In this document: piece after piece, positions 35,656 to 39,765 of the stretch
Layout of the letters: each line of letters starts with the position of its first letter
How positions within the stretch are numbered: position 1 is the stretch's first letter
Source of the DNA: Polynucleobacter hirudinilacicola
GTDB taxonomy: Bacteria > Pseudomonadota > Gammaproteobacteria > Burkholderiales > Burkholderiaceae
Direction of reading: 5' to 3'
NCBI RefSeq assembly: GCF_002192535.1
Contig: NZ_NAIA01000003.1
Location: 277,952-341,951 of the forward strand
Length of the DNA stretch: 64,000 bases
Notes under the pieces: generated by a model
What the model was told of the DNA's origin: nothing
What the model saw: only the letters and a program-made list of their open reading frames with translations
Database searches by the model: none
Position numbers and translations under genes: made by a program

Positions 35656-35682
35656 TTAGCACTCGCGTGTAGGGAGTGCTGA
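35656..35682. promoter_or_regulatory. CIRCE operator (HrcA binding site)
   Basis: TTAGCACTC-GCGTGTAGG-GAGTGCTGA, one mismatch from TTAGCACTC-N9-GAGTGCTAA. Confidence 0.93.
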
Positions 35683-35711: not shown

Positions 35712-35810
35712 GGGCAGGAGCATAAATTCCTGAGAAATGGGCCCTTATTTATAATGGGGACAGGTTGGTAGGTCGATTCCTACAGATAAATCAGCCCAAA
35801 GCCCTTACCG

Positions 35811-35852
35811 CTCCAATCCGTCCTGCCTAGACTGGACAGTCACCGATTGGAG
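35811..35852 (+). promoter_or_regulatory. Inverted repeat that would sequester the SD of the EAL-like gene
   Basis: CTCCAATC (35811-35818) ... GATTGGAG (35845-35852) with inner GTCC/GGAC; GGAG is the SD 7 nt before ATG 35860. Confidence 0.5.
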
Positions 35853-35859
35853 AATGCTG

Positions 35860-36702
35860 ATGAGCCCGAAATCCCGGCTGTACACGCTTGTAAAGGCATG
35901 GAAGAACAAACCCTTCCAAGAAGTCCGCGACGCCTGTGGCGCGCCCTGGCTTGGCATGAGTAGCCAAGCCCTCGAAGAACACCAATCCTGGTCCAAGCGA
36001 CAAGCGATTAGCCATGAACCCATTTTTAACTGCAAGGGAACAAAACTGACCGGCTCACTATTTAGACCTCTGCTAACAGCTTCCGATATGCAATTACTGC
36101 GTTTATTCATGGAAGGCTTGGATGCAATTTCCTACTGGTATCGCAGTGGTCGTTTTATTCCTGGCATTTTGCCAATGCCAACTCATGCAATCGCCTCTAG
36201 CGGCTACATCGATGCCCTGAGTGATCTGATTCTGAACTCACGACTACCAGTCGGGTTGATTGCACTAGGAATCCCATCACTGCCTGAGCCGGATATTGCC
36301 GATGCTTACAAAGAGGGTTTGCTACGCATGCGCCGACTAGGTGTCTTGCTGCATTTCATGAATTTCACGGGGACGGTAGAGCAACTGCACTGGATCAATG
36401 AGATGCAAATAGAGGGAATTCATATTGATATGGGGCAGCTTCGTGATGAAGTCCTATCAAATGATGTGATTAGAGAATTAAAACGGTCGCCCTTTTCACC
36501 CACACAAATTTATGCAAGCAATATCAACCTTGTCAAAGACTTAGAGAATGCATCTGTAATGCAAGTAGATCATGGCTACGGCGGCCTCATGCTATCACCA
36601 CTCAGTCGCCATCAGATTCTTCAAATCAATGATAGCCGTATCGCTAAGGCTATTTTTTCGCTGCACCCTCATCCACAACCAAACCAAAATGGAGACCAGT
36701 AA
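35860..36702 (+). CDS. Degenerate (probably non-catalytic) EAL-domain-like protein
   Basis: Whole-domain resemblance by eye to EAL: ISHEPIFNCKGTKLTGSLFRPLL (EAL replaced by SLF), FIPGILPMPTHAIASSGYIDALSDLIL, LRMRRLGVLLHFMNFTGTVEQLHWINEMQIEGIHIDMGQL (DDFGTGYSS replaced), VMQVDHGYGGLMLSPLS (QGYLFSxPL-like). ORF may start at 35854. Confidence 0.65.
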   Translation: MSPKSRLYTLVKAWKNKPFQEVRDACGAPWLGMSSQALEEHQSWSKRQAISHEPIFNCKGTKLTGSLFRPLLTASDMQLLRLFMEGLDAISYWYRSGRFIPGILPMPTHAIASSGYIDALSDLILNSRLPVGLIALGIPSLPEPDIADAYKEGLLRMRRLGVLLHFMNFTGTVEQLHWINEMQIEGIHIDMGQLRDEVLSNDVIRELKRSPFSPTQIYASNINLVKDLENASVMQVDHGYGGLMLSPLSRHQILQINDSRIAKAIFSLHPHPQPNQNGDQ

Positions 36703-37325
36703 TGAGAAAACGCGTGATGTTAGTAGATGACCATCCGGCTATGCTGATGGCCTTAAAAAGTATGTTGCAAGACCAGCTGTTATTTGAAATCGCAGGTCAA
36801 GCTCAGAATGGCGAAGAATGCCTTCGATCCATCAAAGAGATGAATCCTAATATGGTGATTCTGGATCTTGATATGCCCAAGACCGATGGGTTTGATGTCA
36901 TTCGGCGTATTGGCTTGATGTATCCCGATGTGCGAGTGCTGGTTCTATCTAGCATGGATGAGGCGGTTTATGGCGGAAGAGTTCGATCACTTGGTGGGCA
37001 TGGCTTTGTCAATAAAACTGCAGGGGCTGATGTGATCTTGGCAGCCTGTGTAGCGATCTCACAAGGGTATAACTTTTTCACTCATGGAAAGAATGGCAAC
37101 AGCTCATTAAGTGATAACGATAAATTAGCGCTGATTTCTGATCGTGAGTTACAAGTCATGAAGTATCTCGGAAAGGGGAATACCAATCAGCAGATTTCAG
37201 ACATGCTGCATATCAGTAATAAAACGGTAGCTACTTACAAGACCAGAGTTTTTGACAAACTTGGTATTAACAACATTGCCGACTTAATCTTGTTCTGCCG
37301 CATGAACAAGATCATCGAAAGCTAA
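36702..37325 (+). CDS. LuxR/NarL-family response regulator (BvgA/EvgA-like)
   Basis: REC: MLVDDHPAMLMALKSML...MVILDLDMPKTDGFDVI; HTH: LISDRELQVMKYLGKGNTNQQISDMLHISNKTVATYKTRVFDKLGINNIADLI. Confidence 0.93.
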   Translation: MRKRVMLVDDHPAMLMALKSMLQDQLLFEIAGQAQNGEECLRSIKEMNPNMVILDLDMPKTDGFDVIRRIGLMYPDVRVLVLSSMDEAVYGGRVRSLGGHGFVNKTAGADVILAACVAISQGYNFFTHGKNGNSSLSDNDKLALISDRELQVMKYLGKGNTNQQISDMLHISNKTVATYKTRVFDKLGINNIADLILFCRMNKIIES

Positions 37326-37332
37326 AAGCAAT

Positions 37333-39765
37333 ATGCGTCGATTCATCGTCTGTACATCACTACTAATTTGCCCGCTACTGAATCAGGCAAGTGAGATAGC
37401 TCACGCACAAGCCCTGAGCCCAGCAGAACAGCGATGGATCGACCAGCATCCTGTAGTTCACTTCAGCATTCATGAAAAATATGCACACTATTTAAAAAAT
37501 GATGCTAAAAATTCTGGTGTCTTTCATGGGCTCTTGAAAAAACTAGGTGAATTTACTGGACAAGAATTTTCACCCAAGTGGAGAAAAACTGATCATGAGG
37601 GATTAAAGCAATTAGCTGCTGGTGAAGTAGATTTTATGATCGACCCACCCAGCCTCAATGATGAATATCTCCGATTTGGCTCTTTATCAGAGGCAATCTT
37701 TTGGGGGCATGATGCTGTGCTAACGGCGAGTCCAACAAGCATTGAAATAATTGCTCCTGCCAATATTGCTTACTTTGATCGCGGATACGAAAACCAACCC
37801 TTACCAAGACACCCGCAAGCAAAAATTTCTAATAATGTTCAGAAACTGGTTTTAGACTTACTGAAAAATGATATTGAGGCCTTAGTACTACCCATTCGAC
37901 TCGCACATCAGCTAGTCCAGGATCTCAATACATCAGAGCTTCGTGTAGATGGACTGTACCAGCGAGAGCCTTTTGAATATCGCTGGCTTATTGCAAACCA
38001 AAGCAGCGCTTTACATAATCTGCTCAATAGCTTCCTAAACGACTTAGATCCCATTGAATCAAGTCAATTATTTGCGCTTGGAAATCCGAGTGTTGCAAAC
38101 AGCCAGAGTCATTATTGGGCAAAACTACCTTGGCTGTTCACCCTCACTTTAATCACGCTAGGAGGTATCGTATTTTGGCGTCTACAAAAGAGACAGCATT
38201 TACAGGAGCAAGCAGCGGAAGATTTGATGGCCTCCAAAGATTTAGCTGAAAAAGCAAATGCAGCGAAATCTGCCTTTCTAGCAACGATGAGCCACGAAAT
38301 CCGCACTCCGATGAATGCAATCTTAGGGGTGCAAGAGTTATTACTGAGCAGTCGGCAGTTTCCCGATAATGAAAAATCGCTTCTGAAGAGTGCGCATTCT
38401 TCGGCTGAATCATTGCTAGGTATTCTGAATCAAGTATTAGATCTTTCAAAAATTGAGGCTGGCAAGCTCACTCTCAATTTAGAGCCCTGTTGCCTCAATA
38501 CACTCATTGATGATATTCATTCAGCATTTTCAACTGTGGCGCATAAGCAAGGCCTCATCTTGCATACCTCCAAAGATCCACGGATTGCCGCTGTCTTAAT
38601 GATTGATACTTTGCGACTTCGTCAAATTTTACAGAACCTATTGAGCAATGCGATTAAATTTACCGATCGAGGTGAGGTTTATTTCTCCATCAGCGTGCTG
38701 GCGGATGATCATGCTGGGCAGTTAATTGAGTTCAGAATTATTGATACCGGCATTGGTATGGGTGCCGAGGAAATCAAGCTAGCCCTTCAAGCCTTTGAGC
38801 AAGTACCTGGTAAAGCAGATCAGCAAAATGGTACTGGTTTGGGCCTCACCATTACCAACCATTTGGTCAACTCGATGAGTGGTCAACTCAATTTTGAGAG
38901 CGCTCCCGGCTTCGGGAGCAATATTCATTTCTGCGTGGCACTTCCTCGCACCAGCATTGCCGCATCGAGAAACTCTCTTGCCGATAGAAGTTGGGCCTCT
39001 AGAAAACTATTTTCTAGAAATATCCAAAATCAAGATAGGTCACTCCAAGCCTTAGTGGTTGAAGACCATCCTGCTAGTAGGCAAATCATATCCTTGCAAC
39101 TACAGGCCTTAGGTATTGAGGTGAGCGTTTGCGAAAGTGCAAACGAAGCTCTTGAATTGATATCCCAACAATATTTCGACCTCTTGCTTGCAGATCAATC
39201 CATTCCCGGAATGCAAGGTTCAGAGTTAGCAAAACGTGTACGCTCCCTAGGTCATCGTGAGATCGTAATCATTGGCATCACTGCGGATATCTATGCTTTA
39301 GATGCTCGGCACCAATTTCTTGCTGCCGGCATGAATGGGGTTCTCATTAAGCCGCTAAGCTTAATGACCTTAGAAAATGAATTGGCTCGTTACTTCAACA
39401 CTCAAGACATTTCAGAGAAAAGTGAGGGATCAGGTGCTTTTCAAGAATACTCATTCGAACTCTTTTCTAATCTCTTGAAAAAAAGCCCAGGTCATATCGT
39501 TCTCATATTGGATGAGGTTAAAAAGGTACATGACGATACCGTTGCCATACTGAAAGTCGAAACTGTAGATGAAGCTATTTTGGCAAGTATGATTCATAAA
39601 ATTAAAGGTGGCGCTCAACTATTAAGCGCCCAGCGCTTTATTGCCTGCTGTGAAGCCCTTGAAACGATAGGCCCGATTCCTGACAGAGTGAGCGCATTGA
39701 TTCAATTACTGGAAGATCAAAACCGACTAATTGAATGCTATAAGGCAAAGTACGTAAGTAATTAA
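37333..39765 (+). CDS. BvgS/EvgS-like hybrid histidine kinase (VFT-TM-HisKA-HATPase-REC-HPt)
   Basis: Periplasmic VFT (RWIDQHPVVHFSIHEKYAHY...GEVDFMIDPPSLNDEYLRF), TM WLFTLTLITLGGIVFW, ATMSHEIRTPMNAILG, NAIKFT, GTGLGLTITNHLV, REC ALVVEDHPASRQI...LLADQSIPGMQG, HPt SMIHKIKGGAQLL. Confidence 0.93.
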   Translation: MRRFIVCTSLLICPLLNQASEIAHAQALSPAEQRWIDQHPVVHFSIHEKYAHYLKNDAKNSGVFHGLLKKLGEFTGQEFSPKWRKTDHEGLKQLAAGEVDFMIDPPSLNDEYLRFGSLSEAIFWGHDAVLTASPTSIEIIAPANIAYFDRGYENQPLPRHPQAKISNNVQKLVLDLLKNDIEALVLPIRLAHQLVQDLNTSELRVDGLYQREPFEYRWLIANQSSALHNLLNSFLNDLDPIESSQLFALGNPSVANSQSHYWAKLPWLFTLTLITLGGIVFWRLQKRQHLQEQAAEDLMASKDLAEKANAAKSAFLATMSHEIRTPMNAILGVQELLLSSRQFPDNEKSLLKSAHSSAESLLGILNQVLDLSKIEAGKLTLNLEPCCLNTLIDDIHSAFSTVAHKQGLILHTSKDPRIAAVLMIDTLRLRQILQNLLSNAIKFTDRGEVYFSISVLADDHAGQLIEFRIIDTGIGMGAEEIKLALQAFEQVPGKADQQNGTGLGLTITNHLVNSMSGQLNFESAPGFGSNIHFCVALPRTSIAASRNSLADRSWASRKLFSRNIQNQDRSLQALVVEDHPASRQIISLQLQALGIEVSVCESANEALELISQQYFDLLLADQSIPGMQGSELAKRVRSLGHREIVIIGITADIYALDARHQFLAAGMNGVLIKPLSLMTLENELARYFNTQDISEKSEGSGAFQEYSFELFSNLLKKSPGHIVLILDEVKKVHDDTVAILKVETVDEAILASMIHKIKGGAQLLSAQRFIACCEALETIGPIPDRVSALIQLLEDQNRLIECYKAKYVSN

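Follow-up and report, generated by a model that had tools for sequence, protein, structure and literature searches.

A predicted EAL-fold pseudoenzyme encoded with a probable compact BvgS/EvgS-type phosphorelay in Polynucleobacter hirudinilacicola

The three-gene locus and its products

We analyzed a 64,000-nucleotide stretch (the window, to which all positions refer) of the 2.0-Mb genome of the freshwater bacterium Polynucleobacter hirudinilacicola, in which three co-directional genes on the + strand encode an EAL-like protein, a LuxR-type response regulator and a hybrid kinase. The first gene of this trio (35860..36702, +) encodes a predicted degenerate EAL-fold protein of 280 aa. The second (36702..37325, +) encodes a regulator of the FimZ/EvgA/BvgA type with a receiver (REC) domain and a LuxR/GerE helix-turn-helix domain, and the third (37333..39765, +) an 810-aa kinase containing a Venus flytrap (VFT) domain (residues ~30-250), a transmembrane segment (~263-284) and HisKA, HATPase, REC and histidine phosphotransfer (HPt) domains. 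For the first gene, the ORF finder chose a start at 35854 (282 aa), but we preferred the second ATG at 35860 because its GGAG is better spaced and it is maintained in relatives of the main clade of the genus, several of which have TTG or a non-start codon at 35854. The start codon of the regulator gene sits within the stop codon of the EAL gene (TAATG; 36700..36704, +), preceded by GGAG, and the kinase gene begins 7 nt past the end of the regulator gene. An overlap of the EAL and regulator genes, of 1 nt in 73 loci and 4 nt in 7, was present in 80/85 main-clade loci, a set into which some genomes entered twice, and supports co-transcription of the three genes. The trio is flanked by the divergent groES-groEL genes on one side and a PBP4/S13 peptidase gene downstream. 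The open reading frames, the Pfam domains and the relay residues bear out the original description of a BvgAS-like gene set that is headed by the EAL gene and lies among housekeeping genes.

The regulator consists of REC and GerE domains by Pfam, with D55 as the predicted phosphoacceptor. Its best NCBIfam models are EvgA (141 bits, cut-off 251) and FimZ (128 bits), and since both scores are under the equivalog cut-offs, it is neither EvgA nor FimZ proper. Its REC-LuxR architecture and top similarity to EvgA and FimZ place it among the BvgA/FimZ/EvgA-type regulators, and its recognition helix, KTV[AS]TYK, is conserved genus-wide. The kinase has the relay residues H321 in HisKA, D621 and K673 in REC and H755 in HPt, which are intact in nearly all main-clade kinases. 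The HPt domain scored 20.8 bits against Pfam Hpt, under the cut-off of 24.6, yet contains HKIKGG, a histidine motif that is conserved. Pfam did not detect the VFT domain, the predicted fold of which is closest to VFT2 of BvgS (3mpk, E 1.9e-15), with the EvgS periplasmic domain also among the top fold matches. The periplasmic part of ~220 residues holds a single VFT, and a single helix continues from the membrane into the dimerization and histidine phosphotransfer (DHp) domain in the predicted fold. These features, a periplasmic VFT followed by HisKA-HATPase-REC-HPt with the H-D-H residues, are those of a BvgS-type unorthodox kinase; the tandem VFT1-VFT2 and the PAS domain of Bordetella BvgS proper are missing, in line with the single VFT and absent PAS domain noted originally.

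Pfam returned zero matches to the EAL-like protein even at E 10, and thus no EAL hit, and a single-sequence search of the PDB returned nothing better than E 0.7. A profile built from a 40-member alignment matched RocR and other EAL structures among PDB profiles at E 6e-5 (RocR, 5.9e-5), and the alignment matched a conventional EAL-domain profile with an hhalign E of 4e-15 (global alignment, 3e-14). In the AlphaFold2 model (pLDDT 80, core >90), the nearest structures found by Foldseek were EAL phosphodiesterases (E 1.6e-11, probability 1.00, template-modelling score up to 0.73 on the target). By profile comparison and predicted fold, the first protein is an EAL-type TIM-like barrel, one of the points on which the original prediction could have failed.

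The active site of this barrel has been replaced. With residues counted from the 35854 start, the profile alignment gave the metal and substrate substitutions N to P107, E to G139, E to S142, D to M169, D to N170, K to H190, E to S222, E to N224 and Q to G243. In the first two strands, which were aligned by eye, the Q of QPI is E55, the E of EAL is L69 and the R of EALxR is L73, and EAL itself reads LFR (residues 69-71). All alignable positions for catalysis or contact with cyclic di-GMP (c-di-GMP) are therefore replaced, and the protein has neither the EAL motif nor the metal and c-di-GMP residues of active EAL phosphodiesterases. Given an EAL fold with substituted active-site positions, it is almost certainly not a phosphodiesterase, as its description as apparently catalytically dead had anticipated. 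PHROGs gave no match to the EAL protein, a plasmid search found no relative, and none of the papers searched combined Polynucleobacter and 'EAL domain'.

The protein might instead be a non-catalytic c-di-GMP receptor, either FimX/LapD-like or of the kind proposed for BvgR (PMC12805831), which would feed c-di-GMP status into the relay. Its EAL fold would suit such a role, and the genome encodes a GGDEF-EAL protein and one other GGDEF protein. These two were the only ones found in the whole genome, a minimal c-di-GMP set, and the machinery for such signaling is sparse. Moreover, substitutions occupy the metal and ligand positions that could be aligned, and three of them (P107, G139 and H190) hardly vary across the 40-member alignment, indicating a pocket fixed in another state. 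We regard this explanation as improbable: the protein would neither degrade c-di-GMP nor, most likely, bind it. Of the two possibilities suggested for the compact relay at the outset, c-di-GMP sensing is unsupported because the ligand-contact positions are substituted along with the catalytic ones, and output by protein contact is favored.

Conservation and divergence of the trio

The EAL gene was present in 36/37 genomes of the genus in a first search. In a second sample, the protein was found in 21/22 genus genomes and in 0/178 genomes from 24 other genera of the family. Family and order searches found no dedicated relatives outside the genus, and order-wide matches outside it were partial, mostly to long multidomain EAL proteins. 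Among the loci examined, the EAL gene is followed by the regulator and kinase genes wherever the contig extends far enough, except at L094, a locus in a decayed genome with a kinase fragment only. Co-conservation of the triad with this EAL protein thus holds within the genus, where the trio is syntenic, but not across Burkholderiales, where it had been proposed that it be sought. The groESL genes adjoin the trio in most loci and lie further off in L085 and L086. A CIRCE element (TTAGCACTC-N9-GAGTGCT, 35656-35682) stands upstream of groES, and groESL is therefore probably HrcA-controlled.

Within the main clade, identity is highest for the regulator (mostly 91-100%), intermediate for the EAL protein (mostly 68-94%) and lowest for the sensor domain. 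The sister clade retains the trio, with identities of 56-60% for the regulator and 24-30% for the EAL protein. Its kinases, of 530-590 aa, have no VFT and keep HisKA, HATPase, REC and a C-terminal HPt-like motif (HKxxGGA). The sensor part of the kinase is shortened in L080 and L087, and genomes G017 and G023 (L094 and L095) combine a broken EAL gene with an intact regulator. Decay of the module seems to begin with the sensor and the EAL protein.

Outside the genus, the closest regulators include two (L190 and L191) whose genes are divergent from REC-EAL genes, and it is therefore plausible that the EAL protein descended from, or replaced, a partner like that of the Roc systems. A stronger version of this idea, that the protein is a REC-less descendant of RocR or PvrR which lost its receiver and active site and still antagonizes the LuxR regulator, seems to us somewhat unlikely. 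RocR is among the top PDB profile matches, PvrR matches weakly (E 0.095), and RocR3, in which the EAL domain is possibly compromised, antagonizes Roc regulators when overproduced (PMC12051241). However, the best order-wide matches lie in open frames of ~980 aa, unlike the size of REC-EAL proteins, and the N-terminal 50 residues contain no receiver. The protein accordingly has neither the N-terminal receiver, which Pfam did not detect, nor the active EAL domain of RocR and PvrR.

A candidate operator and a constrained 5' block

Analysis of the upstream region of the operon adds two elements to the original prediction, a putative operator dyad and a matching site at a second regulatory gene. The dyad, GTAGGTCGATTCCTAC (TARG-N4-TTCCTAC; 35768..35783, no strand assigned), is conserved in 68 aligned main-clade upstream regions, with no variation in TTCCTAC and next to none in GTAGG. 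In the sister clade, 3/9 loci have the dyad as well, ~100 nt ahead of the EAL gene. Its half-site equals TTTCCTA, the heptad of high-affinity (optimal) BvgA sites (PMC4314077). Downstream lie a candidate -10 element (TAGACT; 35828..35833, +), conserved even in the divergent relatives L024, L026, L086 and L087, and a candidate -35 element (TTACCG; 35805..35810, +), which is conserved 17 nt from TAGACT and falls under the consensus-scan threshold. Transcription would be expected to start near 35840. A further TATAAT/TATACT sequence just upstream of the dyad (35750-35755), conserved in most main-clade genomes, is a possible second promoter with a transcript beginning near the dyad.

The exact TARG-N4-TTCCTAC pattern occurs in only two places in the P. 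hirudinilacicola genome, upstream of the trio and in the intergenic region between an HTH_17 gene and sucA, which carries TAAGAACTTTCCTAC (L189). Over 12 genomes, it recurred at the trio in 12 and at the HTH_17 site in 11, with other occurrences sporadic. At the latter site, TTTCCTAC is kept in 30/30 main-clade genomes examined, save one base in one, and pattern searches in the sister clade found palindromic relatives between sucA and the HTH_17 gene in 7 genomes, showing that the site is conserved across the genus split. The HTH_17 gene (L189:724-1389, minus strand; G000:C3:695816-696481) is genus-wide, divergent from sucA and encodes a protein with a receiver-like (pseudo-receiver) C-terminus, for which other genera of the family gave distant relatives only (38-40%). 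Two other kinds of candidate were rejected: the second exact dyad, GTAGGTTTGACCCTAC (L100), misses the TTCCTAC half-site, and recurrent one-mismatch matches such as GTTGGATAATTCCTACA (L169, L170) lie within a coding gene or at its start. Near-perfect palindromes (TTTGTAGGAAATTTCCTACAAA) occur in the sister clade (L154-L168), ahead of a TonB-receptor/CNNM pair and in the vicinity of a gene for a low-molecular-weight phosphotyrosine phosphatase; a palindrome with one mismatch lies close to an alternative oxidase gene. In that clade, the regulon may be larger; because the exact search of the P. hirudinilacicola genome shows no counterpart of these palindromes, they are not claimed as targets here.

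The sites could also be read the other way round, with the HTH_17/pseudo-receiver protein binding the operator upstream of the trio, which would then be its target rather than autoregulated. The HTH_17 gene is preceded by the motif in each of the 30 main-clade genomes examined and in 7 sister-clade genomes, and within the sister clade the motif is more consistent there than at the trio. Nevertheless, the match of the half-site to the BvgA heptad, together with the BvgA/FimZ/EvgA type of the trio regulator, argues against this possibility, as does the lack of the motif at distant HTH_17 homologues, and we consider it somewhat unlikely.

The dyad opens a block of nucleotide-level constraint (35768..36063, +) that spans the putative operator and promoter, the leader and about the first 70 EAL codons. 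Synonymous difference in the main clade is 0.02-0.04 for codons 1-10 of the EAL gene, 0.09-0.11 for codons 11-20 and 0.19-0.44 up to codon 70, with a median of 0.53 beyond. The starts of the kinase (0.37), PBP4 (0.54) and Sua5 (0.35) genes, taken for comparison, show no such constraint, although those of groES (0.12) and groEL (0.08) are low as well. Constraint is also seen where the EAL and regulator genes meet, over the final 20 codons of the former and the initial 10 of the latter; here the overlap and the ribosome site of the regulator gene can account for it. The 5' constraint was not seen in a six-sequence sister-clade set. An overlapping gene was rejected, as no frame besides the EAL frame is consistently open across species. 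Alternatively, the block may be an RNA element, either a leader or a small-RNA target, that controls translation of the trio, instead of DNA sites. The reach of the constraint ~70 codons into the gene would fit such an element, as would a fold of the -20..+200 alignment (z -2.8) and a hairpin, CTCCAATC/GATTGGAG, that could sequester the ribosome site (z -2.0). However, covariation is nearly absent, the folds of shorter windows are not better than those of shuffled columns and Rfam gave no match to the block; the hairpin is disrupted in divergent relatives, and the predicted transcription start would exclude its 5' arm. We therefore rejected the hairpin and hold an RNA element to be rather unlikely; neither another reading frame nor a covarying RNA explains the constraint.

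Proposed mechanism and comparison with known systems

We propose that the trio constitutes a BvgS/EvgS-type phosphorelay (single VFT, no PAS) that is autoregulated, has a very small direct regulon and includes an EAL pseudoenzyme acting by contact, and we assign this reading a probability of about 0.6. A periplasmic solute would alter the VFT, and the helix running from the membrane into DHp would switch the kinase. Judging from the intact residues and the known chemistry of the family, phosphate would pass from H321 to D621, H755 and finally D55 of the regulator. In its phosphorylated form, the regulator would bind inverted heptads of the TTTCCTA type in front of its own operon, as well as the site observed upstream of the HTH_17/pseudo-receiver gene, so that the trio probably controls itself and one other regulator. 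The EAL-fold protein, made just ahead of the regulator by coupled translation, would act by protein contact on the regulator, the kinase or another transcription factor, in the fashion of YdiV on FlhD. More tentatively, and with less than even confidence, we suggest that this genus-specific pseudoenzyme is a co-translated stoichiometric subunit of the relay, which sets the output of the regulator without c-di-GMP in a circuit with two targets only, itself and the HTH_17/pseudo-receiver regulator, and which persists in the sister clade without the VFT sensor of the kinase.

Several observations weigh against this proposal. The EAL protein is less conserved than the regulator, which would not necessarily be expected of a tight obligate complex, and 6/9 sister-clade operons have no recognizable dyad. 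The operator could be that of the HTH_17 protein, the gene of which bears the site too; the absence of the motif at distant HTH_17 homologues outside the genus does not discriminate between the two binders. In addition, the substituted EAL pocket could take another ligand.

How BvgR acts has been named an open question (PMC12805831), and its purification proved difficult (PMC11537037). The free-living genus Polynucleobacter offers a compact natural relay whose regulator is encoded in step with a dead EAL protein, and the predicted operator and one predicted extra target make action by contact versus c-di-GMP directly testable.

YdiV is a dead EAL protein that does not bind c-di-GMP and inhibits the transcription activator FlhD by contact (PMC3510510). 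The trio protein shares with it an EAL fold minus the catalytic residues, but YdiV acts on FlhDC. To our knowledge, YdiV is not encoded with a phosphorelay. As for EvgAS of E. coli, the regulator finds its best NCBIfam match in EvgA, and the top fold matches of the sensor include the periplasmic domain of EvgS, but the regulator scores below the EvgA equivalog cut-off and EvgS has a tandem VFT. We know of no EAL partner of EvgAS.

The absence of PAS is ordinary, since ~30% of two-VFT BvgS homologues lack it (PMC5829827). In the PAS-less homologues with an X linker described there, the transmembrane helix runs straight into DHp, as predicted here; that set has two VFT domains, whereas the trio kinase has one and the sister-clade kinase none. 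With BvgAS, the relay that controls virulence in Bordetella, and its companion BvgR, the trio shares a VFT hybrid kinase with REC and HPt, a FimZ/EvgA-like regulator, candidate TTTCCTA-type heptads and a system-linked, catalytically inactive EAL protein. BvgR lacks 12/13 key residues and is thought to be non-catalytic in action (PMC11537037, PMC12805831). In contrast to BvgAS, the trio kinase has one VFT and no PAS, and the trio EAL gene heads the operon and overlaps the regulator gene, whereas bvgR has its own BvgA-activated promoter. The likeness of the EAL protein to BvgR is an analogy at best. The Roc and RcsCB-PvrSR systems of Pseudomonas likewise combine a hybrid kinase of the solute-binding-protein type, a LuxR regulator and an EAL protein as one module, with rocR and rocS1 in one operon and rocA1 divergent from rocR (PMC12051241). 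Unlike the trio protein, which lacks receiver and active site, RocR is an active phosphodiesterase of the REC-EAL type, and depictions of the Roc kinases include the PAS domain that the trio kinase lacks. By analogy, BvgAS with BvgR and the Roc systems are the closest working analogues of the trio.

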